DNA of 40,129 nt from assembly GCA_013286485.1 (NCBI GenBank), contig JABDFN010000007.1:1-40129 (forward strand), read 5' to 3'. Position numbers and translations under genes: made by a program. The stretch is from Bacteroidota bacterium (GTDB lineage: Bacteria; Bacteroidota; Bacteroidia; Chitinophagales; Chitinophagaceae). Shown here piece by piece: positions 7,249 through 37,910 of this stretch. Below the pieces are notes generated by a model. The model ran no database searches, was not told the origin of the DNA, and saw only the letters and a program-made list of their open reading frames with translations. Positions within the stretch are counted from its first letter, which is position 1. Each line of letters starts with the position of its first letter.

Positions 7249-9054
7249 CTATAATTTCTGCAGCGGTATTTTGGCTTTTACATTGCCATTTTTATCGGTG
7301 ATGCGCAGAATATATATACCTATTGCCAAGGGCGCGGTGTTGAAAATATTATTGCCATCTGTAGTTGCAGTCCATGTCGCCATTTTTCTTCCCAACTCAT
7401 CGTACACCATTATTTGATCATTCATATTGATATTAGAAATGGTCAGTTCGTTTTTAACGGGGTTGGGGTAAGTTGTGATATTATTTTCATGTTGCAATGA
7501 GATAACGCCAGTATAGTTAGGATCTAAGACAACCCATATGTTTGAAAAAACAGTATCAGGACAACCGAATATAGTTGAAACTATAGCGGCTGAAATGGTA
7601 TCATTGCCGGCAAGTTTTGTAAAAGATATATTATTAGCTGGTGTGGTACCTAAATAGACTCCATTAATAGTCCAAACAATATTATAAGTGGAAGGTGAAT
7701 TTATTAATGATGCAATCATATTCACAGTCAGGCCGGTTTTTTTCAATATAGGACCTGTTATAATAATAGAGGACGAAGAAGATATTGGTCTAGGGGCAAG
7801 TATCATAGTGGTTGTATCGGGTCTTATAATACACTGCGATGATGTGCCGATAGCTTTAACAATAATTGTAGAAGTGCCAAGTGGATAAACGTTTACAGAA
7901 GTTCCGGTAGTGGGCGTAATGGTATTGCCGGTAGGTGAATACCATGTCCATTGATCATAAGAGATATTGGTAACAGAAAGTGTAATAGGTCCGCCGGAAG
8001 CGCAAAACAATACAGTATCTCCTGATCTATGTGTATTGGAATCTACAGATGCTGCCCAGGTGGTTGTAGGAATAGCAAAAAAAGAAGCTGCATCTGTTTC
8101 TTTAAAAATATATGCGTAAGAGAAAGTTAAACTATCGCCGGCAATAAGCGTGTCGAGACTAAAAATAATACCAACACCTTCATCAGCGTTAGATGAATCA
8201 TATCGTACACTACTTGCTGTTCCTGCATACATACTTGCCATGGTAGCAACAGGTGCAAGACCTCCTGTTAATACGAATGCTTTAGCGCGACAGTTGATCG
8301 TACCTAATTCACAAAATGCTTTTGGATAGTGTAACCCCCAGGTACTAACTGATACTATATTATTGGCATTGGGTAGTTGTTGGCAAACATTGCGGGTAGC
8401 ATAATCTCCCGACTGTTTTTCATCATCATCCGCGTCAAAAGTGCGCATGTAGTATATTTTTCTTACAGTATTAGTGCCTGTATTTTTTAAGGTAATGTGG
8501 GCAACTGCATATAAAGAGTTGGCATCTATGCTGATGTTCTGTGTAATACTAAGTTCTGAAGCCGCAGATAATGTATATGTACCTGACCAAGTACTGGAAA
8601 CAGAACTGCCGGTACTTGTATATGAAACATTTTGTCCGGTTAAAGTAGTTTTGGAAAAGCCTGAAGCGCCATTGGTTTGCAAATTAGGATCGTACGCATT
8701 AGCCTCAGAATCGTTCATGCCAATAGCCCAACCTTCTTGGGGAACTCCCGGAAGAAAATAATCTCCGTAATAGGCCGGGCTACCTACTGTCCACCCGTCT
8801 TTATCTGGATCTGCTATAAAGCCAAGGCTGAGCCTGTTATTTGAAAAAGTGAGACCTGTATCACAGGGGTTATAAAAGCTTTGAGTGACATTGGGATAAT
8901 AACCTGTTGGTGCATCGCATGTTGACCCAAAACAACCGTTTGGAGCTATTCCTACCTGCACATAATTTCCTTTTAAAAACACATTGCAGGTATCAAACTG
9001 AGCAATAGCCTGCAGGCTGCATAGCAGGAAAAGAGTAAAAATAAGGGTTCTCAT
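7249..9054 (-). CDS. Secreted protein with T9SS type A sorting domain (paralog 1)
   Basis: A 601-residue exported protein. It has an N-terminal signal peptide (about 1-18, ending AIAQ) and a first domain opening FDTCNVFLKGNYVQVGI that is shared with its upstream neighbour. Then comes a stretch with Ig/PKD-like features (about 330-500) and a C-terminal sorting domain (about 525-601: TYPNPVKNELTI, MVYDELGRK, GIYILRI, ending KAKIPLQKL). The sorting domain directs export through the type IX secretion system and surface attachment or release. The function of the N-terminal domain is unknown. Its last 28 codon-region bases (7253-7280) are identical to those of the neighbouring paralog (9168-9195), showing duplication or gene conversion. 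Confidence 0.88.
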   Translation of the reverse strand: MRTLIFTLFLLCSLQAIAQFDTCNVFLKGNYVQVGIAPNGCFGSTCDAPTGYYPNVTQSFYNPCDTGLTFSNNRLSLGFIADPDKDGWTVGSPAYYGDYFLPGVPQEGWAIGMNDSEANAYDPNLQTNGASGFSKTTLTGQNVSYTSTGSSVSSTWSGTYTLSAASELSITQNISIDANSLYAVAHITLKNTGTNTVRKIYYMRTFDADDDEKQSGDYATRNVCQQLPNANNIVSVSTWGLHYPKAFCELGTINCRAKAFVLTGGLAPVATMASMYAGTASSVRYDSSNADEGVGIIFSLDTLIAGDSLTFSYAYIFKETDAASFFAIPTTTWAASVDSNTHRSGDTVLFCASGGPITLSVTNISYDQWTWYSPTGNTITPTTGTSVNVYPLGTSTIIVKAIGTSSQCIIRPDTTTMILAPRPISSSSSIIITGPILKKTGLTVNMIASLINSPSTYNIVWTINGVYLGTTPANNISFTKLAGNDTISAAIVSTIFGCPDTVFSNIWVVLDPNYTGVISLQHENNITTYPNPVKNELTISNINMNDQIMVYDELGRKMATWTATTDGNNIFNTAPLAIGIYILRITDKNGNVKAKIPLQKL

Positions 9055-9163: not shown

Positions 9164-10558
9164 TTACAATTTCTGCAGCGGTATTTTGGCTTTTATGTTG
9201 CCACTCACATCTATCACACGAAGTATATACATGCCGGGTGTGAGGTTAGTAGTGCTGAATGAATTATTGCTGCTGCTGGTTATTATTAAATTTTCAACTT
9301 CTCTCCCCATCATATCAAATACAGTTACTTGATCAGAAGCATTTAGGCCCGATATGGTCATACCATCTCTAACCGGGTTGGGGTAGATGTTGATGTTTTT
9401 ATTTTGATTATTTAGATTATTTACAGCTGTATGATGATGTGAGGTATCATTCGGATTGCCGGAAGTATCTGTATACGAAAAAGTTGTTTTGAGAGCTGAA
9501 TCTAGGTCAATACCCCTTCTGAAGGCATATGCGTAAGAAACCACTATTGTGTCTACGGGTGCTAAGTCGCCGATCTTATAAATAAGGCCAATACCAACAT
9601 CTTGTTGTAAAGAATCATTTTGATGCATTAAAGTATTTGCAGTATCTCCTCCGCCGACAGTACTATATGGATAAGCATTGAATAAAGAATCTATTTTTTC
9701 ACCTGTCGGAGGGTATAAACCGGATTTCATGATATAACATTTCGCGTTAGAATCCATCGTGCCAAGCCCCAGATAATTTGATGAAATTACCGACCCTGTA
9801 GGCGTAAGCCCCCACGTAGAAACCAGCACTTTATGAGCTGTATCCGGTAATTGATATTCTATTATATTCTTGGTGGCAAAATTACCTGTTTCAGGTTCCG
9901 AATTATCCGGATCAACAGTACGTTGGTAATAAACATTATGGCGCGTAGTAGAGCTCATATTTTTTACTGTCACTTTTGTTGTAAAAAAAGTTTGAGATGT
10001 ATCAAGAGTTGTGGTCTGTGTTATAAGCAGGCTATCCCACATACCCTGCCACACAGCTGTAATAATTGCTTCTGAAGTAGAATAAGAAGTATTGCTTCCG
10101 CCCCCTGTATGTCCAAAGGCGTCTGTATCGGAACAAATACCACAAATATTGCCTGTGCAACCATTTCCATTAAAATTATCAGCCTGTATTCCGTCAGCCT
10201 CTATGCTCCAGCCTTCCTGTGGTGTGCCGGGGAGAAAATAATCGCCATAGTAAATATAAGGGCTACCAACTGTCCAGCCATCTTTATCAGGATCAGCAAC
10301 AAAGCCAAGTCCAACCCCATATGGGGGGCAACCACTGCCACAGGCTATAGAATTGCCAACAGAAGAAGCTCCTTGTGCGTGATATCCTCTTCCGCAATAT
10401 CCTGTGGTGGGTGTCGGAACACTACTACCATATGCTCCATTCCAGTTAATGCCTACCTCTACATAGTAACCTTGTAGAAAGACGTTACAACTATCCAGTT
10501 GGGCAAATGTTTGTCCTGCAGATAGCAGGATCAATAAAGCAAGTAAAGATGATTTCAT
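9164..10558 (-). CDS. Secreted protein with T9SS type A sorting domain (paralog 2)
   Basis: A 464-residue exported protein paralogous to the one downstream. It has a signal peptide (about 1-19, ending TFAQ) and the shared opening LDSCNVFLQGYYVEVGI. Shared motifs follow, such as GFVADPDKDGWTVGSP, YGDYFLPGTPQEGW and a YYQRTVDPDN segment, then a C-terminal T9SS type A domain (about 390-464: IYPNPVRDGMTI, TVFDMMGRE, GMYILRV, KAKIPLQKL). It lacks the Ig/PKD-like middle part of its paralog, which explains the shorter length. It is cell-surface or secreted; no enzymatic motif was recognised. The 109-base gap to the next gene suggests separate or weakly coupled expression. Confidence 0.88.
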   Translation of the reverse strand: MKSSLLALLILLSAGQTFAQLDSCNVFLQGYYVEVGINWNGAYGSSVPTPTTGYCGRGYHAQGASSVGNSIACGSGCPPYGVGLGFVADPDKDGWTVGSPYIYYGDYFLPGTPQEGWSIEADGIQADNFNGNGCTGNICGICSDTDAFGHTGGGSNTSYSTSEAIITAVWQGMWDSLLITQTTTLDTSQTFFTTKVTVKNMSSTTRHNVYYQRTVDPDNSEPETGNFATKNIIEYQLPDTAHKVLVSTWGLTPTGSVISSNYLGLGTMDSNAKCYIMKSGLYPPTGEKIDSLFNAYPYSTVGGGDTANTLMHQNDSLQQDVGIGLIYKIGDLAPVDTIVVSYAYAFRRGIDLDSALKTTFSYTDTSGNPNDTSHHHTAVNNLNNQNKNINIYPNPVRDGMTISGLNASDQVTVFDMMGREVENLIITSSSNNSFSTTNLTPGMYILRVIDVSGNIKAKIPLQKL

Positions 10559-11273: not shown

Positions 11274-14200
11274 ATGAAAGCAAATTGCACAGCTATAGTA
11301 TTCGTATTCTTATCGTTAAGTGCATGGGCGCAAAATGATAATAGCTACAGAAATAAAAACAATCCTTTATACTGGCAAAACAGGAAACCTTATACTGGTT
11401 ATTGGCAGCAGGATGTGCAGTATAAAATTGACGCCCGTATAGATGAGACAGAAAATAAAATAGATGGCAAAGAAGAATTGACTTATTGGAACAACTCTCC
11501 TGACACACTTCACTTTGTATATTTTCATTTATTCCAGAATGCTTTTGTAAAAGGTTCTCACTTGCACGACCTGGAAAAGATGAATAAGGTAAAAGCAAAA
11601 ATGGGTAAAAAAGAGGCACAGGGATTAGGCACAGTACTCACCCATGTAAAAGCAGGTAATGATGAAGCCAAAATGGAATTGGATAATACAATACTCAAAG
11701 TGTATTTGAACAAGCCGCTGTATCCCGGCAGTAGTACCACCTTCAGTATGGATTTTACAACCTACTATGATAATGGTAGTACAAGGCGTCGTATGCAAAT
11801 GTGGGATGCCTGGGGTACTATGCACTATAATGGTACGCAGTGGTTTCCTAAATTATCAGTGTACGATCATAAATTCGGCTGGGACACCTATCAGCATTTG
11901 AATAAAGAATTTTATGGCGATTTTGGTTCTTATGATGTGAATTTAGATTTCGCTTCTAATTATGTAGTAGAGGCAACCGGTGTATTACAAAACAGGGATG
12001 AAGTTTTGCCCAAAGAACTTCGTGATAAACTGGATATTAAAAACTTTGCAACCAAAAAGTGGGATGAAACTCCTTCGATCATAACACCATATGTGAAAGG
12101 TGAGCGTAAAGTGTGGAAATACCATGCTGATAATGTACATGATTTTGCTTTTACTGCAGATCCTTCATACCGTATAGGTACAGCATACTGGAACGGTATA
12201 GAATGTGTCGCACTGGTGCAGGAACCTCATGCAAGCGGCTGGCAAAATGCACCTGGGTATATAGCCACAATAATAAAAACATTTTCTGAAGACATAGGCA
12301 TGTATGCATACCCTAAAATGGTAGCTGCCGATGCGCAGGATGGAATGGAGTATCCTATGTTAACATTGGATGGAGGTAGAGAACCGGGATATAGAGGGCT
12401 CTTTGTACACGAAATAGGACACAATTGGTTTTATGGTATGGTGGGCAATAACGAAACATATCGCGCAGCTATGGATGAAGGGTTTACACAGTTTCTTACG
12501 GCATGGGGTTTGCGAAAAATAGATGGTAATAACATGGTGACGGGCGTTCCTGCATCTAAGTACAGGAGAAAACATATGGAACCTGCAGACGCTTTAGATA
12601 GAAATGTGCTAACCCCATATACACTTGATGCGCTCAATCAGGATGAAGTGCAAATAAATACCTGGTCAGATGATTTTAACAATGGTCTTAATCATGGCGG
12701 CGGCTACAGAGAAGTGTATTTTAAAACAGCCAGCATGTTATATAACCTGCAGTATGTGTTGGGTGATTCATTGTTCCTCGCAGCTATGAAACATTATTTC
12801 GGTCAATGGAAATTTGCGCATCCCTATTTTGAAGATTTCAGGGAATCTGTAATTGGTTTTACACATACGGACCTCAATTGGTTTTTTGATGAATGGTTCG
12901 AAACAACCAAGCGTTTGGATTATGGCATCGCATGCATTCATAAAATACATGGGCAAGATAGCTTTGCCATAGGCTTTAAACGTACAGGCGAAATGCAAAT
13001 GCCGATAGATTTTACAGTTACTGCTAAAAATGGTAATAAATACAGCTATTACATACCTAATACATGGGATGAAAAAAGTACCAATGCAACCGTACTGCCT
13101 GAATGGTATGGATGGGGCAAGTTTGCAAATACATACATTGCTCGGGTGCTTATACCTTCCGGCATTAGGCATGTTCAAATAGATACTACCAATCGTTTGG
13201 CAGACAGGGATATGGAAGATAATTATCGTAACAAGAGCAATATAATTCATCCTGCTGGCTGGAACGTACGTTGGGATGATGGTCTGGCCAAAGCCACTGA
13301 CAGGAGAAAATATAGGGGTTATGTACGGCCCGATATATGGTGGAACGAGGTGGATGGTATAAAAGCAGGTATCCACTTCGAAGGGGGCTATATGAATCTT
13401 ATGCACAAAACAGATGCAACTGTTTGGCTGAACACACACGTGCTCCAAAGCACAAAATATAGCACTACAGGCGACCAGGCGATGTTTGATAAATATGTAC
13501 CTGTTAATTACACATTCAACTACATTTCTCCGATTAGTAGAAACTATCCAAAGCTGGAATTGCAAATTGGCAGCAGGTTGTTGGATGGATTAAACGATCA
13601 CAGCCTCGGTTTTATATGGAACATGAGCCCGCAAAACACTATACAAGCATATGGACGTACTCTATGGCGCCAAATGAACTATGATCTGGATTATCTTATT
13701 TATCCTTTGGAATGGAGCAGTACACAAAACAATGTAAATGCTTCCGTAAACCTGGCTTGGGCGCATAATTACAGCTATTTCCGTGGCAACGGGAAATATA
13801 CATTTAGCCTGCGCTCACCTTTTTATTTAGGTGGCAGCGGGTTTGATTATTCTTATGGTCAGCTAGAGGCAATTAATAACAACACATTGGGAAAGTTGAT
13901 CTTAAAAACAAGGTTATTCGCGCGCTATGGTGGTGGAAACAATATACCGCATGAGAGCGCATTGTTTTTGGCGGGCGCCAACTCCGAACAATTAATGGAT
14001 AATAAATATACGCGTAGTGTGGGCTTTGTTCCTGATGACTGGGGCGGTATATCCAGGTATGATGTAAATCATTTTCAGGAAGGCGGCGGGTTGAACCTGC
14101 GTGGGTATGCCGGGTATTTTGCTGAAGATCAGAGAAATGGTAATAGCTATGTTGCTTATAAAGGCCGTAGTGGCGCATCTGTAAGTGTAGAAGCAGATAT

Positions 14201-14525
14201 AGAGAACTATATCTCATTAAAACCAGGTTTCACAAAGAATTGGCTGCATATAGATGTGTACTTTTTTGGAGACGCGGGAATAATGGAATTGAGCCAATAT
14301 GCTATGCCTGATTATTGGCAAACACAACCAACCAATTTATGGAGCGATATCCGTTTTGATGGTGGTGTGGGTTTTGCTTTCACTATTAAGAAATGGCCGG
14401 TTATAGATAAAGCCAGGCCGCTTACTATACGTATAGATATACCTGTATTCATAAACAGGCCACCATATGCAAATTCACAATACACTACATTCAGGTACGT
14501 TGTTGGGGTGAGTAGAACTTTTTAA
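11274..14525 (+). CDS. M1-family metallopeptidase fused to a predicted outer-membrane beta barrel
   Basis: A 1083-residue exported protein with a signal peptide at about 1-20 (ending SAWAQ). The N-terminal half is an M1 gluzincin aminopeptidase: zinc ligands H379 and H383 in HEIGHN, third ligand E402 in MDEGF (the HExxH-18-E spacing), and a substrate-binding GMEYP at 357-361 in place of GAMEN. Family enzymes remove N-terminal residues from peptides. After about residue 670 the sequence becomes alternating, aromatic-rich beta strands. It contains GGGLNLRGYAGYF (LRGY at 942-945, like the [VL]RG[FY] motif of Omp85 barrels), FFGDAG, and a terminal phenylalanine typical of outer-membrane proteins. 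The barrel is my inference. The gene overlaps the convergent nucleotidyltransferase gene by four bases. Confidence 0.88.
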   Translation: MKANCTAIVFVFLSLSAWAQNDNSYRNKNNPLYWQNRKPYTGYWQQDVQYKIDARIDETENKIDGKEELTYWNNSPDTLHFVYFHLFQNAFVKGSHLHDLEKMNKVKAKMGKKEAQGLGTVLTHVKAGNDEAKMELDNTILKVYLNKPLYPGSSTTFSMDFTTYYDNGSTRRRMQMWDAWGTMHYNGTQWFPKLSVYDHKFGWDTYQHLNKEFYGDFGSYDVNLDFASNYVVEATGVLQNRDEVLPKELRDKLDIKNFATKKWDETPSIITPYVKGERKVWKYHADNVHDFAFTADPSYRIGTAYWNGIECVALVQEPHASGWQNAPGYIATIIKTFSEDIGMYAYPKMVAADAQDGMEYPMLTLDGGREPGYRGLFVHEIGHNWFYGMVGNNETYRAAMDEGFTQFLTAWGLRKIDGNNMVTGVPASKYRRKHMEPADALDRNVLTPYTLDALNQDEVQINTWSDDFNNGLNHGGGYREVYFKTASMLYNLQYVLGDSLFLAAMKHYFGQWKFAHPYFEDFRESVIGFTHTDLNWFFDEWFETTKRLDYGIACIHKIHGQDSFAIGFKRTGEMQMPIDFTVTAKNGNKYSYYIPNTWDEKSTNATVLPEWYGWGKFANTYIARVLIPSGIRHVQIDTTNRLADRDMEDNYRNKSNIIHPAGWNVRWDDGLAKATDRRKYRGYVRPDIWWNEVDGIKAGIHFEGGYMNLMHKTDATVWLNTHVLQSTKYSTTGDQAMFDKYVPVNYTFNYISPISRNYPKLELQIGSRLLDGLNDHSLGFIWNMSPQNTIQAYGRTLWRQMNYDLDYLIYPLEWSSTQNNVNASVNLAWAHNYSYFRGNGKYTFSLRSPFYLGGSGFDYSYGQLEAINNNTLGKLILKTRLFARYGGGNNIPHESALFLAGANSEQLMDNKYTRSVGFVPDDWGGISRYDVNHFQEGGGLNLRGYAGYFAEDQRNGNSYVAYKGRSGASVSVEADIENYISLKPGFTKNWLHIDVYFFGDAGIMELSQYAMPDYWQTQPTNLWSDIRFDGGVGFAFTIKKWPVIDKARPLTIRIDIPVFINRPPYANSQYTTFRYVVGVSRTF

Positions 14526-16661: not shown

Positions 16662-17702
16662 TCACAAATTCGATAAGAGGGCTAAATGCAGATAACAAAC
16701 GCATTTTTTACAGGTTTCATCATTTGCCATATCTAATCCTTTTCGGAAAAGAATATTTTCCTTACTGTTTAAAATATCACCTAGCTCATTATCTCTGATA
16801 TTGCCCATTGCTTTATGAAAAAAACATGGTCTTACTGTGCCGTCAGCCTCGATTACAGTAGATACCCATGGTGCATTGCACTTCTTATATGGGAAATCGT
16901 TCATTCCCCACAAAGCTGAATAATAGGTATATATCTTTCTGATTTTTTCCGTTGATTCAGCTATGAATCCATTTGCAAAATCTTCTTTGTAATGAGAAAT
17001 AATACGATCAATTATTTCAAGAAGTTCGGGTAATTCCTCCCTGGAGATCATAATTTCTGATTGCCTCGAAAAATCCCATGGCATTTCTCTGTTAAAGGCG
17101 TGGCTGCTTACATCGGCGGGTAAAAAGCTTACTCCGTCCAATCCAATATTTTTAGCAGCATCTATAATTTTTGGCCATACCTTATAATTAAGCCGGTGTA
17201 TAACCGTTCTGGATGTAATAGGATAATTTGGGGTTAAAGACCTTATTGCTGTTATTCCTTCTTTTATTTTGGCAAATGCTCCCGGAATATTCCTTATAGC
17301 GTCGTGTGTGGGTTCATCCCCATCAAGCGAAACAATAACATCATGCACATATTTAATGATAAGTTCGGCATTCTTTTTTAAGGTTAAACCTGTTGAAAGG
17401 AGTGTAACGTATATGCCTTGTTCATTCAATATTTCGCAAAACTTAAAAAAATTTGTATTCAGCAATGCCTCTCCGCCACTCATCAATACTTGCTGTGTAC
17501 CAAATTTCTTTAAGGTTGTCATAAGGCCTTTTATATCTTCTTCTGCTAACTGCTTCAGATTTTTATTGTCTTTCCATATATCGCACATTACGCAACGGCA
17601 ATTGCAGGCACTGTGAGGCATTAAGATCACTATAGGCAGTGCAGAAATTTTGTGAGTCTGTAAAGTTCTGTAACGTTTATATATCTGTAAGGGTGATTGC
17701 AA
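16662..17702 (-). CDS. Radical SAM protein with C-terminal SPASM-like cysteines
   Basis: A 346-residue cytoplasmic enzyme. The radical SAM [4Fe-4S] motif CxxxCxxC is C33-C37-C40 (CNCRCVMC), followed by the GGE motif (SGGEALL) that binds SAM. The C-terminus carries cysteines in KKCNAPW, RPCFF and CKKCVC, as in SPASM/twitch proteins that hold an auxiliary iron-sulfur cluster. No candidate precursor peptide was found nearby, so peptide maturation is not favoured; other members act on small molecules or lipids. The start is TTG at 17702: an in-frame stop lies three codons upstream and the next ATG is residue 28, just before the cluster motif. It follows the B12-type radical SAM gene by 11 bases, so they form an operon. 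Confidence 0.88.
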   Translation of the reverse strand: MQSPLQIYKRYRTLQTHKISALPIVILMPHSACNCRCVMCDIWKDNKNLKQLAEEDIKGLMTTLKKFGTQQVLMSGGEALLNTNFFKFCEILNEQGIYVTLLSTGLTLKKNAELIIKYVHDVIVSLDGDEPTHDAIRNIPGAFAKIKEGITAIRSLTPNYPITSRTVIHRLNYKVWPKIIDAAKNIGLDGVSFLPADVSSHAFNREMPWDFSRQSEIMISREELPELLEIIDRIISHYKEDFANGFIAESTEKIRKIYTYYSALWGMNDFPYKKCNAPWVSTVIEADGTVRPCFFHKAMGNIRDNELGDILNSKENILFRKGLDMANDETCKKCVCYLHLALLSNL

Positions 17703-17713
17703 TATCGTTTATT

Positions 17714-19213
17714 TTAAAAACCTTCTATTTCAGGTTGCCTGTATTTCCATATGACCTGTAAGGCTTTTAATTCGTATGGTTTCCAGTAAAAATTGGCTTT
17801 ATACCGTATGCCCGAAACCACGCGCATAATGCTGCGTTTTAAATTATTCAATCGTATATCAGATACTGTAGGATAATAACTATTCAGTACCACCTCAAAG
17901 TTTCTTATTTTTTCCCGCATCTCATCGGTAAGCCATGGGGTCATACCATTCTTTCTCAGATCAAAGTTTTCCCATTCTGCACCTATCCAATCTTCTAAAT
18001 TTTTTGGGTACCTGAATCCCGAATCCATTACTTGCTCAAACATTTCAGAACCTTCTGTAGGTACCGGGCTATAAGTATAAATAATGATCTCTGTTTTGGG
18101 ATTTATTTTTTTTATCTCTTTAATGAACCGTATATCAAAATCAATATTGGCCATTACATCAGCAGCAGTATCGGCCGGGGTTCCTAATACAAAAGAATAT
18201 TCCGGTATAATATCAAACTTTGCCATACGCGCTGCAAATTCTTTTAGCTGAGCTCCGGTTTGGGTGCCACCTTTATCCATTTGTGCCAATACTTTGTCAT
18301 TACCACTTTCGGCTCCAAAGAATATCATTTTACAGCCCGATCTGCGCATCAATGCCAGGGTTTCATCAGAATACTTATTAATAGTATCTATCCTTCCCCA
18401 TGCCCACCATATCATCTTTTCAGGTTCTATTAGCTTTGCGAAATCTATAGTCCTCTTTTCAGAAACAAAAAAATTATTGTCATGAAACTCTATTGCATTG
18501 CCACCATATTTTTCTTTCAGGTATTTAATGTCTTTGTACACATTTTCAGCCGATTTTCCTTTCCACCTGGCATTGTATATGGGTACTACTGCACAAAAAG
18601 AACAGGTAAAAGGACAACCTATACTTGAATGATATGCAATTGTTTTTGTGCCTAAGCACGATTTGCCAAGATACCTATGTAAAGGGTAGAAACTATTTAG
18701 TTTTTCGTATGGCAGATTCGGCAGTGAATCCTGGTCATACAGTTCATCTTTTCTTGTCTTAATAATATTATCGCCGGATCTGTATATCAGGTTGCTGATA
18801 AGTTCATAAGGCTTGTTATTTTCAAGAGTATCTACTAATGCCGGGAAAGACTTTTCGCCCGGACCATTAACTATAAAGTCAACATATCCCGAAAGTAGTA
18901 CCACCTTCGGTTGTCCGGCAGGGAAGTACCCCCCCCATATTATTTTTATTTCAGGAAATAGTTCGCGCGTTTTCTTTGAGATTGGTATGGCCTGTTTCAA
19001 CTGGGGCCCCGGCATACAGGTAAGGCCAAAATACTTATATTCTCCTGTTTTGAAATAATTAAATATTTTCTCGGCAGGGTTTGTTTCCATATTGCCATCT
19101 ACTATCACATACTCATATTTACCATCAATAGATCCGGCAATGGATAAGATGGAATTAGGTATACGTGGCTTAAATTTTAAACTTCTTGGATTGAATAATA
19201 ATACTTTATTCAT
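17714..19213 (-). CDS. B12-binding-type radical SAM enzyme
   Basis: A 499-residue protein with the BchE-like two-domain layout. An N-terminal Rossmann-like, cobalamin-binding-type region (about 1-135, with VLLFNPR, YFGLTCMPGP, IIWGGYFPAG, VDFIVNGPGE) precedes a radical SAM domain with CxxxCxxC at C200-C204-C207 (IGCPFTCSFCAV). The KYGGNAIEFHDNNFF stretch follows, as in this class. The base-on cobalamin motif DxHxxG is not evident. Known relatives carry out methylations, cyclisations or C-C bond changes on unactivated carbons, including in hopanoid, bacteriochlorophyll and antibiotic pathways; the substrate here is unknown. It is followed by the SPASM radical SAM gene 11 bases downstream; together they form a two-gene operon. 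Confidence 0.88.
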   Translation of the reverse strand: MNKVLLFNPRSLKFKPRIPNSILSIAGSIDGKYEYVIVDGNMETNPAEKIFNYFKTGEYKYFGLTCMPGPQLKQAIPISKKTRELFPEIKIIWGGYFPAGQPKVVLLSGYVDFIVNGPGEKSFPALVDTLENNKPYELISNLIYRSGDNIIKTRKDELYDQDSLPNLPYEKLNSFYPLHRYLGKSCLGTKTIAYHSSIGCPFTCSFCAVVPIYNARWKGKSAENVYKDIKYLKEKYGGNAIEFHDNNFFVSEKRTIDFAKLIEPEKMIWWAWGRIDTINKYSDETLALMRRSGCKMIFFGAESGNDKVLAQMDKGGTQTGAQLKEFAARMAKFDIIPEYSFVLGTPADTAADVMANIDFDIRFIKEIKKINPKTEIIIYTYSPVPTEGSEMFEQVMDSGFRYPKNLEDWIGAEWENFDLRKNGMTPWLTDEMREKIRNFEVVLNSYYPTVSDIRLNNLKRSIMRVVSGIRYKANFYWKPYELKALQVIWKYRQPEIEGF

Positions 19214-26100: not shown

Positions 26101-26925
26101 TTATTGTTTTTTTCTCAGGGTAATAATATAATAATCGCCTATGTTTTTCCACGGCCATTTTGTTTTTAATTGCGCTTCCTTTCTTTTTAAAAGATTAAAC
26201 GTGTTAGGATGCTTATCTGCAAAATGTTCAAAATAAGATGGTGGAACGATCGTACAAAGCCCCTCCACACTTACCAATTCAAATTCGTTAGCTGCGGCTT
26301 TAACAACATCAGATGCTTTGTAATACCAGCAGGTAAAGTTTACACCTTCTATATGTGCAGCAGCGCCATTTTTGCTGCCTAGCCTTCGAAAAGCTGATTT
26401 AAAGTTGCCGCGTACTGCCAATGCTAATTCCCATAAGCAAAATGGAGGTAGCAATACCATGGTTACCATTCCCCGGCGTTTTAGTAATACAGGTAATGTT
26501 CTTAATATTTCAGGAAGACGGTCAGTGCAGTTCAATCCTGCAAAATTGGAAAAGATAAGATCGAACGGGCCTTTGTTTTTCAGATCTTGTAATGCAAGAA
26601 AAGAACATTGTTCTACGGATATATTATTTACAAGGCCTTTATCTGCCACCTTGGTTTTTAGTTTTTCCAGCATGCCTGCTGCAATATCTGTAGCATGAAC
26701 AGTATGCCCGCGTTGCGCAAAATAGATACTGTCTTCACCTGTGCCCGCGTTTAATTCTAATATACTACTATGTGCTGTAAGAAATTGTTCTACATGAGCT
26801 CTTACACGCTCTCTTTTATATTGTACGATCTTATTATTGCTATAGATATCATCGAATATTGCAGACTGCTTACTAAAAGCAGCGGCAGCAAGTTGTTCAT
26901 GTATGGTATGTGCTGGATCCGGCAT
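26101..26925 (-). CDS. Class I SAM-dependent methyltransferase (first in operon)
   Basis: A 274-residue methyltransferase. Motif I is ILELNAGTGEDSIYFA, with HATDIAAGMLEKL as the acidic loop and GPFDLIFSNFAGLNC as motif II. I chose ATG at 26925 because it forms a TAATG overlap with the stop of the upstream radical SAM gene and has GAGAAG six bases upstream. An alternative start at 26991 would add 22 residues lying entirely inside the upstream gene. The C-terminal region (VNFTCWYYKASDV, LCTIVPPSYFEHF) is hydrophobic, consistent with a lipid-like acceptor, but this is inference. Coupled translation with the B12-type radical SAM suggests both act on the same molecule. Confidence 0.85.
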   Translation of the reverse strand: MPDPAHTIHEQLAAAAFSKQSAIFDDIYSNNKIVQYKRERVRAHVEQFLTAHSSILELNAGTGEDSIYFAQRGHTVHATDIAAGMLEKLKTKVADKGLVNNISVEQCSFLALQDLKNKGPFDLIFSNFAGLNCTDRLPEILRTLPVLLKRRGMVTMVLLPPFCLWELALAVRGNFKSAFRRLGSKNGAAAHIEGVNFTCWYYKASDVVKAAANEFELVSVEGLCTIVPPSYFEHFADKHPNTFNLLKRKEAQLKTKWPWKNIGDYYIITLRKKQ

Positions 26926-28373
26926 TATATGCTTCTCTCTAATGCTTTTAATCTGTACGATGCTATTATTTGTGAAGGTATATAATAGCACACGGCAACC
27001 ATTTTTCTAAGGCCTTTAATGGGGTCACTGAATATTTTTTGTATACTTTCTATTGCTACGTGCATTCGGTGATTGTTCTGAACATAATGGTGCAGCTGTT
27101 TATAATACTCAGGTTGGTAAGTATTTCGGAACATCAGCTTCAATTCATCACTATCGGTCCAGTTGGCCTTTTCCTTTAGGTCTTGCTTTACTTTCTCATA
27201 AAAGCCTGTCCCTGGTAGTGGGTAAGATACAGATACACCAATGCTGTATGGCATCAGTTGATTGATCATTTTTATGGTCTTCTGTATATCTTCTTTTGTT
27301 TCTCCCAAATAACCAAATTGTATAAAAAAGGAAGGCTTAATACCATTTGCTTTTAATAATCTTGTTGACGCTGCTATCTGCTCTATGGTAGTGCCTTTAT
27401 CCATAGCATCTAATATCTTTTGCGAGCCGCTCTCGGCGCCTATCCACACATTATCGCAGCCTGCACGCGCTAGCGCCTTTATATTGTTTTCCTGCAATAG
27501 CAGGTCTGCACGCGATTGTATCTTAAATTTCAGGTGCAGCTGTTCCTTTTCTACCAGGTCAGCAAACTCATTCACCCAGCCTGGCTTCAAGCCAAATATG
27601 TCATCACAAAACCAAATATGGTCAAACCCATATTTCTCTTTCAGGAATTTTAGTTCATTCACTACATTTTGCGGCGAACGGGTATTATAACGATTACCAT
27701 AAATTGGTTTTGCACACCAGTTGCATTTAAAAGGACAACCGCGCGTAGTGCCCATATTAATAGAAAAATATCCTGAGCTTTTCTGCCATGCTTTCTTGTA
27801 TGGTTCCATATCTACAAGGTCCCATGCCGGTGTTGGTAAACTATCCAGGTCTTTCATCACATTTCGGTGAACGGTCTTTATAGTATTACCATGTTCCCTG
27901 TAAGTAAGCCCCTGTATGTTTGAGAAGTCTGTAGTATTGGTTTTTATTGCATTTGCTGCTTCCAGTAGTGTCATCTCAGCTTCACCCAGTATTACAAGAT
28001 CGGCTCCTGCATCCATGTACATTTCAAAATGATCTGTTGAATCCGAACTGGAGACTACCACTTTGCAACCGCGTTCCTTGGCCATCTTGCTCATTTCAAA
28101 CGCAGCCTCCCGCATATTGGTAAGGCACATTTTAGTGAGGTAGTTAAACCCATCATCATATATCACCAGCAGGTCAGGCTGATACGTTTCTAATATAAGC
28201 AGAATGTCCTTCGCGCTTTCCGCAAACATCACATCGTGTATGCGCACATCATAGCCATGTTCTCGCAGCACTGCGGCAGCATACATGGTCCCCAGTGGAG
28301 CATAAGGTTGCTGTAACGCCCATTGTTTGGGATCGAAACGGAGAAAATAAGAATGAGTGAATAATACACGCAT
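26925..28373 (-). CDS. B12-binding-type radical SAM enzyme (first gene of operon)
   Basis: A 482-residue protein. The N-terminal cobalamin-type Rossmann domain (about 1-145) begins MRVLFTHSYF and includes PYAPLGTMYAAAVLREHG, YDVRIHDVMF, VVVSSSDSTDH and ADLVILGEAEMT. The radical SAM domain has CxxxCxxC at C213-C217-C220 (TRGCPFKCNWCAKP), then IWFCDDIFGL and IGAESGSQKILDAMDKG. The C-terminal helical part carries PYSIGVSVSYPLPGT. It belongs to the BchE/HpnJ-like class that carries out methyl transfer or oxidative cyclisation at unactivated carbon. A good promoter lies 50-81 bases upstream, and five more genes follow with overlaps or gaps of at most 12 bases. Confidence 0.9.
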   Translation of the reverse strand: MRVLFTHSYFLRFDPKQWALQQPYAPLGTMYAAAVLREHGYDVRIHDVMFAESAKDILLILETYQPDLLVIYDDGFNYLTKMCLTNMREAAFEMSKMAKERGCKVVVSSSDSTDHFEMYMDAGADLVILGEAEMTLLEAANAIKTNTTDFSNIQGLTYREHGNTIKTVHRNVMKDLDSLPTPAWDLVDMEPYKKAWQKSSGYFSINMGTTRGCPFKCNWCAKPIYGNRYNTRSPQNVVNELKFLKEKYGFDHIWFCDDIFGLKPGWVNEFADLVEKEQLHLKFKIQSRADLLLQENNIKALARAGCDNVWIGAESGSQKILDAMDKGTTIEQIAASTRLLKANGIKPSFFIQFGYLGETKEDIQKTIKMINQLMPYSIGVSVSYPLPGTGFYEKVKQDLKEKANWTDSDELKLMFRNTYQPEYYKQLHHYVQNNHRMHVAIESIQKIFSDPIKGLRKMVAVCYYIPSQIIASYRLKALERSI

Positions 28374-34252: not shown

Positions 34253-34687
34253 TTAATTAAAATCGAGAGTAGCAGAGCCGCCGCCGGTATTGGTCCAAGT
34301 AGCGGTGATAGTAGTACCAGGACATGGTGGAATAGCCGAAACCCATGAATAGGTAAAGGAAATAACACATGGTCCAGAAGGTGCAGGACATAGCCAAGTG
34401 CAATAGTTACCTACTCCATAATAATAGCATGTGGAGCAAGCATCACCAACAGTTGCGAAGTCCCAAGCCCCTGAAGGAATAGAAAGGGTGGGATAGACTG
34501 TACCACCACCGGCAATTGTCATTAAGCCATAGTTTGCGTCAGGCAAAGTACATAGTCCACCTGCTGAGTAATTAGCTATGAAATTAATAGACTCGCACGT
34601 ATTGTTTGTTACTGTAAGAGTTATTTGTGCTTTAACACTTGAAACAGCAAATAAAGCGAGCAATAAAATAAAACTGATTTTTTTCAT
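34253..34687 (-). CDS. Small exported cysteine-rich protein (family member A)
   Basis: A 144-residue protein with a clear signal peptide (about 1-20, ending VKAQ). The mature part opens LTVTNNTCESINF, has a central glycine patch (IAGGGTVYPTLSIPSG), several cysteines (CSTCYY, GNYCTWLC, GPCV) and ends in a beta-rich GGGSATLDF. The opening TVxNN..C, the GGG turn and the G[DN]xC element recur in three neighbouring genes, so these form one family by sequence. There is no T9SS sorting domain. I recognise no known family; the protein is probably periplasmic or secreted, with disulfides. It is the last gene before a strong terminator; the gap to the preceding gene is 61 bases. Confidence 0.75.
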   Translation of the reverse strand: MKKISFILLLALFAVSSVKAQITLTVTNNTCESINFIANYSAGGLCTLPDANYGLMTIAGGGTVYPTLSIPSGAWDFATVGDACSTCYYYGVGNYCTWLCPAPSGPCVISFTYSWVSAIPPCPGTTITATWTNTGGGSATLDFN

Positions 34688-34748
34688 AGAATTGATTTTA
34701 TTGTGGTTAATAATAGATGTTTAAAATGATAAGGTTTGCAGGGAAATA

Positions 34749-35186
34749 TTAGTTGATATCAACTGTTACAGCGCCTCCGGGAGCTCTTGTCCAGGTAACA
34801 TTAATAGTAGCGCCTGCGCAACCGCCACAACATTGTGTATAGCTATTAGTTGTAAAAGCCCCGCAATAATCGCCTACTGTAGTATAGCAACGACCTCCTA
34901 ACGGTAGTACACATGTATCAAGCACCTGTACATTCTCCCATGTAGAACCGGGAGGGGGCGCAGAGCCTGCCCAGATAAAGGGGTTTGCTATATCAAGCAC
35001 AATTGAGCCACCGCCAGCAATATAATTTGGCGTAGTAACATAATAAAGCCCAGTGCAGACAGGAGAAGCTTCGGCTGTACCTATAATGTGAAAGGCACAA
35101 GTGAGGTGGTTATTAACTGTAACCGTTTGAGCTTTTACAATTGCAAAGGCAAATAGTGCAGCAGTAATAAGAATGATCTTTTTCAT
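34749..35186 (-). CDS. Small exported cysteine-rich protein (family member B)
   Basis: A 145-residue protein with signal peptide (about 1-19, ending VKAQ). The mature part begins TVTVNNHLTCAFHII and contains IAGGGSIVLDI, APPPGSTWENVQVLDTC, VGDYCGAF and a cysteine cluster QCCGGC, then ends in ATINVTWTRAPGG. It shares the NN..C opening, GGG turn, PP..W segment, VLD and G-D-x-C motif with the two 138-residue paralogs at 35255 and 37494, and the C-terminal TxTxTWT strand with member A. The eight or so cysteines suggest disulfides. The function is unknown. It sits 68 bases after the preceding member. Confidence 0.75.
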   Translation of the reverse strand: MKKIILITAALFAFAIVKAQTVTVNNHLTCAFHIIGTAEASPVCTGLYYVTTPNYIAGGGSIVLDIANPFIWAGSAPPPGSTWENVQVLDTCVLPLGGRCYTTVGDYCGAFTTNSYTQCCGGCAGATINVTWTRAPGGAVTVDIN

Positions 35187-35254
35187 AGATTGATTTTTTA
35201 TTGTTAATAGAATGATTAGCTATTATTCGACTGTTACAAATTTGGTAGCACCAG

Positions 35255-35671
35255 TTAACCTCCGCTTGGCCATATGATTATTATATTATCCAGGGCATCG
35301 TCTACAGAATAGCTGGCAGTTTCTGATGAGCCGCAACCGGAAGTAAGGTTCACACTCGATGGAAATCCGGCACATACGTCACCTGTAAATCTCATTTGAC
35401 CGTCGTCTAATACTGTAATGCCCGACCATACTGCATTTATAGGTGGTGCGGCACCCGACCATGAAAGGTCGTTCACGCTATTGTAGGTTGCTATACCACC
35501 GGCAGCAAGCGTTATTGTTTGCGAAGTAAATGCAGCATCGCAGGTATTAGGGTTGGATACAACAACAGAAAAAGAAAAGCTGCAACTGGTATTGTTGTTG
35601 ACCGTGAATGTTTGTGCCCGCGCAATACTGCATGCGCTTAGCAGGGCAAGAATGAAAAAGAGTCGTTTCAT
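35255..35671 (-). CDS. Small exported protein (family member C1)
   Basis: A 138-residue exported protein, signal peptide about 1-19 (ending ARAQ). The mature sequence TFTVNNNTSCSFSFSV, NPNTCDAAFTS, ITLAAGG, LSWSGAAPPINAVW, TVLDDGQMRFTGDVCAGF and SGCGSSETASY is about three-quarters identical by eye to the protein at 37494, and shares its four cysteines. Stretches of DNA are identical too (for example 35299-35335 with 37538-37574). No catalytic residues or sorting domain are apparent. It is separated from its twin by a T9SS gene in the same orientation, which is consistent with a local duplication. Confidence 0.78.
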   Translation of the reverse strand: MKRLFFILALLSACSIARAQTFTVNNNTSCSFSFSVVVSNPNTCDAAFTSQTITLAAGGIATYNSVNDLSWSGAAPPINAVWSGITVLDDGQMRFTGDVCAGFPSSVNLTSGCGSSETASYSVDDALDNIIIIWPSGG

Positions 35672-35732: not shown

Positions 35733-37442
35733 TCAGTTTTTTGTAAACTTTCCTCCAAATACAGATCCATCAGCGCTTTCGAGATTCACCTGGTAAACTC
35801 CATTTGCTAATTGGGATATATCCACCTGTTCAACATTAAGGCCGTCGCTCACTTGTATACGCTGCACCAACCTTCCCATGTTATCATATATTTTTAAAAT
35901 GCCGCCCTTAAGTTTCTCATTAATCAAACTAACATTGATCTCGTTATCTGCAGGATTGGGAGCGATAGTAAGTGCAGAAGTTATATTCGGGTTTGCTGCT
36001 ATTATATGAGGGGCAGGTTTGCTTGAGGGAGGATTTTTTCCGCAGTCTGTATTTTCGTTACGCGGCAGGTCGTAAGCGTATACAATATCATTTACTTGTG
36101 TTAAATAGGCATCGTCAGGTGCTATGTATACAGTTGCGAAACCAGGAACATTAGCATTGCTGGGAGTGTCATTGCCAGGGCAATCGTATCCCCAGTCATC
36201 CTTTATGACAAAGGTGTTTGTATAAGTGCCATAGCAACCCGAAAATGTTGGGAAAGAGCTTGCTGTATTATAAGTAATAGAGAGTCCGGATTCTGCATCC
36301 GGAGCAGGGAAATTTGTATAACGAGTTAAAACTCCTGAATAATTTGTTTCGGCATATATTGCGCCGTTACCCATATCTAAGCCGCTAACACAAAGTTTAT
36401 TCCTGCCTTGGTCAACAGTTATTCCCATGCCTTGTGATATAGTACCGCTGTTCAGATAGTATTTTAAAAACGGGAAAGCAAGTGTATAAGGATTTATTTT
36501 CCCTATCATTATTTGCTCGTTTGTGAACCCTGTATATAATGTGCATGGCTTGCCTGATATACCGGTTATGCCTAAATCACCATCACCTACGTCTACCAGG
36601 CTATTGCCAAATAAAGTGGCGTTTGATGCATACACATTAAGTTGCACATCCTGGTAGTAAGAGCCTGCATCATCAAATACATATAACATCATGTTTGACC
36701 ACATACCGTCTGTAGCATTGCCAATAACAGCGTATCTTCCCTGGTAAGGAACAACTTGCTGAAAGTAAGCGCCAATGCCAATAAATGGACGATATGGTGA
36801 TATGCCGACTACTTGTTTAGCCCATATCAGGTTGCCATTTCCGTCTACAGAAAATATAAGAGCCATGTTTGGTGCACTCCATGGGCCTCCATCCAGGTAA
36901 CCGCATGTAATAAAATTACCCGTAGAAGTTTCAGCTATGCTGTATAGCATTCCTTTATTGTCAAACCTTCTATACCAGCTTACATTACCGCTGCCATCTG
37001 TTTTAAGCAGAAACATATCGTCGTAAACAATAGAAGGGTTACAATTGTTATTGCTTGTTTCACCATCGCGTCTCACGCCGCCGCAAATAATATAACCGCC
37101 ATCTGATGTATGCAGTGCATATTGGCATGTGAAGTAATCTGCAAGATTAGTGCAGTTTATTTCATCAATGTCAACATAGGTTTTTAGCCATTGAGAATTA
37201 AGAAAGTGGTCTATCTTCTCCAGTTGAATTCTTTGTAATATAAAACCACCTGCGGCCTGGTTGTTCAGACCTCCTATAAATGCTGGAAGCGTATTACCGG
37301 ATAAGATGTAAGCATTAGATGAGGGAACATAGTCGATGCCTTTATTTATAACATCGGGGAAATGCCTGTCCATGTTCTGGGCATTGCAGGTAAAAGCACA
37401 TATCAGAACTGCAGAAATGATCGAAAGGAGTATTTTTTTCAT
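35733..37442 (-). CDS. Secreted protein with T9SS type A sorting domain
   Basis: A 569-residue exported protein. It has a signal peptide (about 1-21, ending TCNAQ) and a large domain with repeated blade-like units (TSDGGYIICGG, DMFLLKTDGSGNVSWYRRF, TGNFITCGY, MALIFSVDGNGNLIWAKQV), suggesting a beta-propeller. The C-terminal T9SS type A domain (about 490-569) includes IAPNPADNEINV, KIYDNMGRLVQRI, LANGVYQVNLE and ends GGKFTKN. It is exported by the type IX system to the surface or medium. The substrate or partner is unknown. It is flanked by two nearly identical small secreted-protein genes, and may have been inserted or kept between them. Confidence 0.88.
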   Translation of the reverse strand: MKKILLSIISAVLICAFTCNAQNMDRHFPDVINKGIDYVPSSNAYILSGNTLPAFIGGLNNQAAGGFILQRIQLEKIDHFLNSQWLKTYVDIDEINCTNLADYFTCQYALHTSDGGYIICGGVRRDGETSNNNCNPSIVYDDMFLLKTDGSGNVSWYRRFDNKGMLYSIAETSTGNFITCGYLDGGPWSAPNMALIFSVDGNGNLIWAKQVVGISPYRPFIGIGAYFQQVVPYQGRYAVIGNATDGMWSNMMLYVFDDAGSYYQDVQLNVYASNATLFGNSLVDVGDGDLGITGISGKPCTLYTGFTNEQIMIGKINPYTLAFPFLKYYLNSGTISQGMGITVDQGRNKLCVSGLDMGNGAIYAETNYSGVLTRYTNFPAPDAESGLSITYNTASSFPTFSGCYGTYTNTFVIKDDWGYDCPGNDTPSNANVPGFATVYIAPDDAYLTQVNDIVYAYDLPRNENTDCGKNPPSSKPAPHIIAANPNITSALTIAPNPADNEINVSLINEKLKGGILKIYDNMGRLVQRIQVSDGLNVEQVDISQLANGVYQVNLESADGSVFGGKFTKN

Positions 37443-37493: not shown

Positions 37494-37910
37494 TTAGCTA
37501 CCTGATGGCCAGACTATGACAATGTCATTTGAGTGGTCGTCTACAGAATAGCTGGCAGTTTCTGATGAGCCGCAGTTGGAGGTAAGATTTGCACTGGCTG
37601 TAAATCCGGCACATGCATCGCCGGTAAATCTCAATTGGCCATCATCAAGAACGGAAATGCCGGACCAAACTGCATTTATCGGTGGTGTGGCACCCGACCA
37701 TGATAGGTCATTCACAGTAGTGTAAGTGGCTATATCGCCTGCAGCTAAAGTCACAGTGTGTGATGTGTATGCGGCATCACAAGTATTTGGATTTGATGCG
37801 ATTACAGAGAATGAAAAGTTACAGCCGGTAGTGTTGTTAACTGTAAATGTTTGTGCCTGTGTTGATGTAAATACCCCGATTAGGGCAGCAATAAGAAAGA
37901 TCTTTTTCAT
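37494..37910 (-). CDS. Small exported protein (family member C2)
   Basis: A 138-residue exported protein, signal peptide about 1-19 (ending STQAQ). The mature part TFTVNNTTGCNFSFSV, NPNTCDAAYTS, VTLAAGD, LSWSGATPPINAVW, SVLDDGQLRFTGDACAGF and NCGSSETASY is a close paralog of the protein at 35255. Substitutions are mostly conservative, so both copies look functional. It is the first of the five minus-strand secreted-protein genes after the two-component system. A TAGCTTTG box (complement at 37946-37953) upstream resembles a -7 element, but no -33 partner was found. Confidence 0.78.
   Translation of the reverse strand: MKKIFLIAALIGVFTSTQAQTFTVNNTTGCNFSFSVIASNPNTCDAAYTSHTVTLAAGDIATYTTVNDLSWSGATPPINAVWSGISVLDDGQLRFTGDACAGFTASANLTSNCGSSETASYSVDDHSNDIVIVWPSGS

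Follow-up and report, generated by a model that had tools for sequence, protein, structure and literature searches.

An open reading frame on the forward strand of the window (the whole 40,129-nucleotide stretch of contig JABDFN010000007.1 analysed here) encodes a 1083-residue protein in which an M1 peptidase is followed by an Omp85-type outer-membrane barrel (11,274–14,525; open reading frame with translation, and AlphaFold2 model). By computational analysis of fold, motifs and conservation, the two parts are fused in a single polypeptide, and we consider the product to be, most likely, a secreted M1 zinc aminopeptidase that is carried by a POTRA-less Omp85 barrel, held at the outer membrane facing the periplasm, and engaged in trimming peptides. 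The gene lies in a 1.9-Mb assembly that is 60% complete, and Taibaiella and Flavipsychrobacter (Chitinophagaceae, Bacteroidota) are the closest named relatives that carry it. A first-pass annotation, made from the sequence alone, had proposed an M1 peptidase fused to an Omp85-like barrel; this proposal is now backed by fold prediction, structure search, profile comparison with controls, motif conservation, and recurrence in many genomes. The positions it gave for the reading frame and its length, H379, H383 and E402, LRGY at 942–945, GDAG at 999–1002, and the C-terminal Phe are all correct.

The M1 peptidase module and its active site

The protein starts with a probable Sec signal peptide that has no lipobox (residues 1–19, MKANCTAIVFVFLSLSAWA; 11,274–11,330), identified by reading the sequence; the AlphaFold2 model has a helix at residues 2–18 and low pLDDT at 19–21. 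The M1 module follows at residues 25–640 (11,346–13,193), as delimited by PF01433, Foldseek, and DSSP of the model. PF01433 was the sole domain that Pfam recognised in the 1083 residues (377–541; 42.6 bits against a cut-off of 27.7), and NCBIfam gave a weak M1 match and nothing else. A Foldseek search of the PDB with the full-length model returned the M1 aminopeptidases IRAP, ERAP1 and ERAP2 as best matches (E~1e-21). According to DSSP of the model, the module comprises a beta-rich N domain, a catalytic domain (~311–545) and a beta-sandwich (~546–640), and it has no helical domain IV.

Conservation was assessed in alignment A1, which holds 77 full-length sequences at 41–69% identity, including that of the window. 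The zinc-binding HExxH motif, here HEIGH (residues 379–383; 12,408–12,422), and the third zinc ligand of the HExxH-x18-E site, E402 (12,477–12,479), are present in all 77, so that the complete zinc site recognised at first pass is kept throughout: H379, E380, H383 and E402 are invariant, as are E359, Y478, Y482 and K484. Y482 (12,717–12,719) falls, in the alignment with Escherichia coli PepN, on the Tyr in VYEKGAEV, which is the catalytic Tyr of that enzyme. The sequence GMEYP (residues 357–361; 12,342–12,356) is what we take to be the equivalent of the GxMEN exopeptidase motif of M1 enzymes; all 77 sequences retain its Glu and have Tyr in place of its Asn, with G357, E359, Y360 and P361 invariant and M358 changed to Val in three. 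The module therefore shares with characterised M1 aminopeptidases (PepN, ColAP, LTA4H, ERAP/IRAP) the HExxH-x18-E site, the catalytic Tyr and the enzyme fold, but differs from them in having GMEYP instead of GxMEN, and a barrel where they have helical domain IV. Judging by these residues, the enzyme should be active, and exopeptidase specificity is likely.

A 16-strand barrel of the Omp85 type

The M1 module is connected by a junction (residues 641–679; 13,194–13,310), the region in which soluble M1 paralogues stop, to a 16-strand outer-membrane barrel at residues 680–1083 (13,311–14,522), assigned by AlphaFold2, Foldseek and hhalign. The first-pass annotation had placed the barrel in the last 400 or so residues, which agrees with these limits; residues 546–640 still belong to the M1 beta-sandwich. 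The full-length AlphaFold2 model, built on A1, has a mean pLDDT of 88.6 and a pTM of 0.84, and consists of the M1 enzyme (~40–640) and then the barrel. Its strands 1–6 span residues 680–691, 695–706, 710–720, 744–755, 758–770 and 773–782, and strands 7–11 span 788–799, 822–835, 838–849, 860–872 and 875–887; a 79-residue loop bearing LRGY comes next, after which strands 12–15 run at 967–975, 991–1010, 1013–1038 (with a break) and 1050–1060, followed by the C-terminal strand 16. Because M1 structures swamped the Foldseek output for the full-length model, the barrel was also folded separately on alignment A2 (53 sequences), again giving 16 strands with LRGY in loop L6 (pLDDT 89.8, pTM 0.86). Structure prediction thus returned a 16-strand barrel containing LRGY, as anticipated at first pass, and placed the motif in the strand 11–12 loop; the soluble, barrel-free domain named there as the contrary outcome appears in none of the AlphaFold2 models of the C-terminal region.

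In the Omp85 plan, loop 6 bears an (L/V)RG(F/Y) motif. Here the long loop L6 joins strands 11 and 12 in DSSP of the models (residues 888–966; 13,935–14,171), and its LRGY (residues 942–945; 14,097–14,108) is placed by hhalign onto the LRGF/RGY of Omp85 proteins. R943 is invariant in A1, and L942, G944 and Y945 are kept in 72, 74 and 76 of the 77 sequences. GDAG (residues 999–1002; 14,268–14,279) takes the form xDAG in the family, with D1000 invariant, and the protein ends in an invariant Phe, F1083 (14,520–14,522), as in a BAM-type beta-signal; G938, G939, G1031, G1033, R1053, D1055 and P1057 are likewise found in 77/77. Since these residues are invariant or nearly so across 77 relatives at 41–69% identity, the motifs are not due to chance. 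LRGY also occurs in the BamA of Flavobacterium johnsoniae (PMC12611786).

With the separately folded barrel as query, the best 50 Foldseek matches in the PDB were all BamA or TamA (E 1e-9 to 4e-7, probability 1.00), and BFVD gave a single match with E below 0.001 (2.4e-5), to an unnamed protein. The TM-scores to BamA and TamA are moderate (0.34–0.57), the TamA barrel 4n74 scoring 0.57 by target length. At the sequence level, Pfam Omp85 (PF01103) matched none of 53 barrels, that of the window's protein included, and neither phmmer nor the A2 and A3 profiles found a barrel match among PDB sequences; the similarity is too remote for sequence search, and structure and profile–profile comparison were therefore used. 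One may postulate from the missing Pfam match and the modest TM-scores that the region is a barrel of some other family, of the FadL, porin or TonB-receptor type, that has come to resemble Omp85 by convergence. The composition of the 50 best structural matches speaks against this, as does hhalign: the barrel alignment matched a pool of Omp85 barrels from Bacteroidota, made up of BamA-type and TamL-type sequences and a single PF01103 plus POTRA protein, at P 94% and E 2e-7, while P stayed below 2% for reversed Omp85 sets and at about 2% or less for FadL-type/PorV-like, PF03349-like and TonB-receptor-type barrels of the same bacteria. LRGY in the strand 11–12 loop, xDAG, GxG and the C-terminal Phe moreover align in order; in the comparison with L116, GGGLNLRGY falls over GGANSLRGF, DAG over DAG, and final Phe over final Phe. 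We consequently regard convergence as very improbable. The profile match lies mostly in the C-terminal half of the barrel, and it was not significant against BamA alone (P 0.3%) and about 50% against TamL alone, so that the sequence link depends on the pooled profile, which the structural evidence does not. The profile search suggested at first pass thus gave a match to the pooled Omp85 profile and none to PF01103.

No POTRA domain was found by Pfam, and the AlphaFold2 model has no beta-alpha-alpha-beta-beta unit at residues 640–680; Omp85 members without POTRA ('noNterm') are on record (PMC4104836). The C-terminal region accordingly combines the 16 strands, the L6 motif and the profile homology of Omp85/TpsB proteins, and lacks their POTRA. 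Its likeness to the barrel domains of TamA and BamA, its best structural matches, consists in the fold, the position of the L6 motif and the aromatic C-terminal ending; those proteins differ in carrying POTRA domains and share no context with the gene studied here, and an insertase function is not implied.

Distribution and evolution of the fusion

Among the genomes of 150 relatives, 57 encode the barrel, nearly always in one place, and in 53 of these 57 the reading frame is at least 1014 residues long. The same full-length frame in many independent genomes rules out an assembly artefact or read-through between genes, and the fusion of M1 and barrel in one polypeptide is old and real. A phylum-wide draw gave matches in 68 of 396 genomes, including barrel-only proteins and distant M1 proteins of ~1000–1120 residues. 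Rather than being confined to the window, the fusion belongs to a conserved, mostly single-copy family, and divergent relatives of this family occur in other parts of the phylum.

Two of the more distant groups are informative. In group B (L194, L214, L215) the barrel is clearly homologous to that of the window (hhalign E 9e-34). Group C (L196–L213, L026; ~930–1055 residues) has a homologous C-terminal region (hhalign E 7e-7 over 323 columns) without a conserved LRGY, and from this homology we infer that the region is a barrel as well. Group C proteins occur in 44 of 248 genomes overall, with one copy in each of the 27 genomes sampled from family f25; a cultured and genetically tractable carrier is therefore likely, which would make the function directly testable.

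The relatives also encode soluble M1 paralogues (L024, L025, L027–L030; 617–698 residues) that have the M1 module in common with the window's protein, at 32–35% identity. The paralogues have no barrel and stop at the M1/barrel junction; they end in IDPSxRLADVNRxNN or close variants, corresponding to residues ~636–652 of the window's protein, so that the barrel is not needed to complete the M1 module. There was no barrel gene within a few kb around them. A tree built from the M1 domains recovers group A and group C each as a clade (100/100) and joins the soluble paralogues to two of the three group B sequences (100/100), with modest support for their nesting inside B (85–86/61–63). Going by this topology, the barrel has probably been lost in some lineages, although independent gains of barrels may be an alternative to loss.

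Barrel homologues that stand alone were found in families f42 and f44 (L147–L175, L176–L195). They are ~400–470 residues long with a signal peptide, have (L/I)RGY in those read and no Pfam match, and their genes are often flanked by NUDIX-like and acetate-kinase-like genes. We considered whether they might be paired with a separate M1 gene; there was no M1 gene within about 7 kb in the loci inspected.

Pairwise distances in the M1 and barrel domains are correlated (r 0.90). This joint evolution of enzyme and barrel, which also speaks for the anchored enzyme that we favour, would fit a scenario in which the barrel itself works as a pore or translocase in concert with the enzyme, handling peptides or unfolded proteins that are cut at the periplasmic mouth; the strict conservation of L6 and LRGY, as in functioning Omp85 proteins, points the same way, and the barrel-only homologues of other families suggest that the barrel may have a function of its own. 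Against this, there is no POTRA domain to receive substrates, and group C keeps a barrel homologue without conserved LRGY, suggesting that anchoring may suffice. On balance we judge a coupled pore unlikely. Gene context offers no hint of a substrate, since no conserved partner gene was present in 79 loci, apart from ordinary housekeeping neighbours in 13 of them.

Sidedness and relation to known enzyme–Omp85 fusions

The likeliest reading is that the barrel anchors its own catalytic domain on the periplasmic side. Sec would carry the protein across the inner membrane and the BAM complex would insert the barrel into the outer membrane, where the barrel would stand in place of the usual C-terminal helical domain of M1 enzymes and keep the enzyme beside the barrel mouth, on its periplasmic side. 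There it might trim peptides that enter through the outer membrane, or fragments or N-termini of envelope proteins. The even number of strands and the long loops at odd strand connections suggest that the ends of the barrel, and with them the N-terminal enzyme, are periplasmic.

To our knowledge, nearly all functions established for Omp85 proteins are those of insertases or translocases; work on PlpD has reportedly established that an Omp85 scaffold can carry an enzyme. PlpD of Pseudomonas aeruginosa resembles the protein described here in that a single polypeptide comprises a signal peptide, an N-terminal soluble enzyme and, at the C-terminus, a 16-strand Omp85 barrel, but PlpD has a lipolytic patatin domain and one POTRA, whereas ours has an M1 zinc peptidase and no POTRA; PlpD is in addition known to dimerise. 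Pfam found PF01433 only, and no patatin domain, in the window's protein. The first-pass analogy with PlpD thus stands as far as an enzyme–Omp85 fusion is concerned, with the qualification that the patatin domain of PlpD is not on the surface; it is located only in the periplasm (PMC11116518). This bears on a further alternative, in which the M1 domain would pass outward through the barrel, as the type Vd model first put forward for PlpD would have it, to act as a surface exopeptidase for peptide feeding. Surface display was first proposed for enzyme–Omp85 fusions (PMC4104836), and a peptidase on the cell surface would befit an organism that degrades polymers; the location of PlpD's own enzyme argues against it, and a folded enzyme of ~600 residues would need to cross a barrel that retains L6 and LRGY and whose even-stranded topology keeps the N-terminus periplasmic. 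We regard surface display as improbable and, like the coupled pore, as less likely than periplasmic anchoring. A broader scenario may also be imagined, namely that barrel of the Omp85 type and M1 enzyme together constitute, across the phylum, single outer-membrane machines of Bacteroidota that import or receive peptides and cut them at the periplasmic mouth, the barrel replacing the helical domain in the active-site chamber; this is speculative, and we would not expect it to prove correct. We also considered an M1 subunit in the BAM complex of F. johnsoniae, but the text of its published description lists no peptidase subunit (PMC12611786).

Heinz and Lithgow (2014) distinguished ten Omp85/TpsB subfamilies, among them an 'Omp85-metalloprotease' (Metallo) group that carries PF00149 (PMC4104836). 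In Pfam, PF00149 is the calcineurin-like phosphoesterase, and the subfamily name appears to be wrong. Two Omp85 proteins of this kind from relatives (L217 and L219; ~1130–1230 residues, PF00149 N-terminal) match both PF00149 and PF01103. They share with the M1 fusion a soluble metallo-enzyme N-terminal to an Omp85 barrel, and occur in the same bacteria; the window's protein differs in having PF01433, no PF00149 by Pfam, and a barrel unmatched by PF01103. The M1–barrel protein is therefore a different architecture, an actual metallopeptidase–Omp85 fusion as opposed to the phosphoesterase of the so-called metalloprotease subfamily.

The literature searched, which left subscription papers mostly outside, holds no description of an M1–Omp85 fusion and no experiment on any member. 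The fusion adds to the known enzyme–Omp85 proteins a peptidase with a complete and conserved active site, on a barrel that lies outside every described family; Pfam sees only the M1 part. Because the same unannotated design recurs across Bacteroidota, the protein seems to represent a widespread type of peptidase tethered to the outer membrane, one overlooked by domain databases.

Several other genes of the window may be recorded. Just upstream of the M1–barrel gene, two adjacent reverse-strand genes (7249–9054 and 9164–10,558) encode proteins that begin alike (AQxDxCNVFLxGxYVxVGI) and that each carry a type IX secretion sorting domain (PF18962) at the C-terminus. Radical SAM proteins are encoded on the reverse strand at 16,662–19,213 and 26,925–28,373; a Pfam scan of the first two identified SPASM at 16,662–17,702 and a B12-binding domain at 17,714–19,213. 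The cluster also encodes a protein resembling amidohydrolases, and what appear to be a methyltransferase and a transporter; it may be a small locus for a natural product or for surface modification. Nearly in tandem on the reverse strand, at 34,253–35,671 and 37,494–37,910, lie the genes of four small secreted proteins (138–145 residues) whose starts are similar (MKK...AQ...VNN...C), the series being interrupted by a 569-residue reading frame (35,733–37,442); the array looks like a local duplication.
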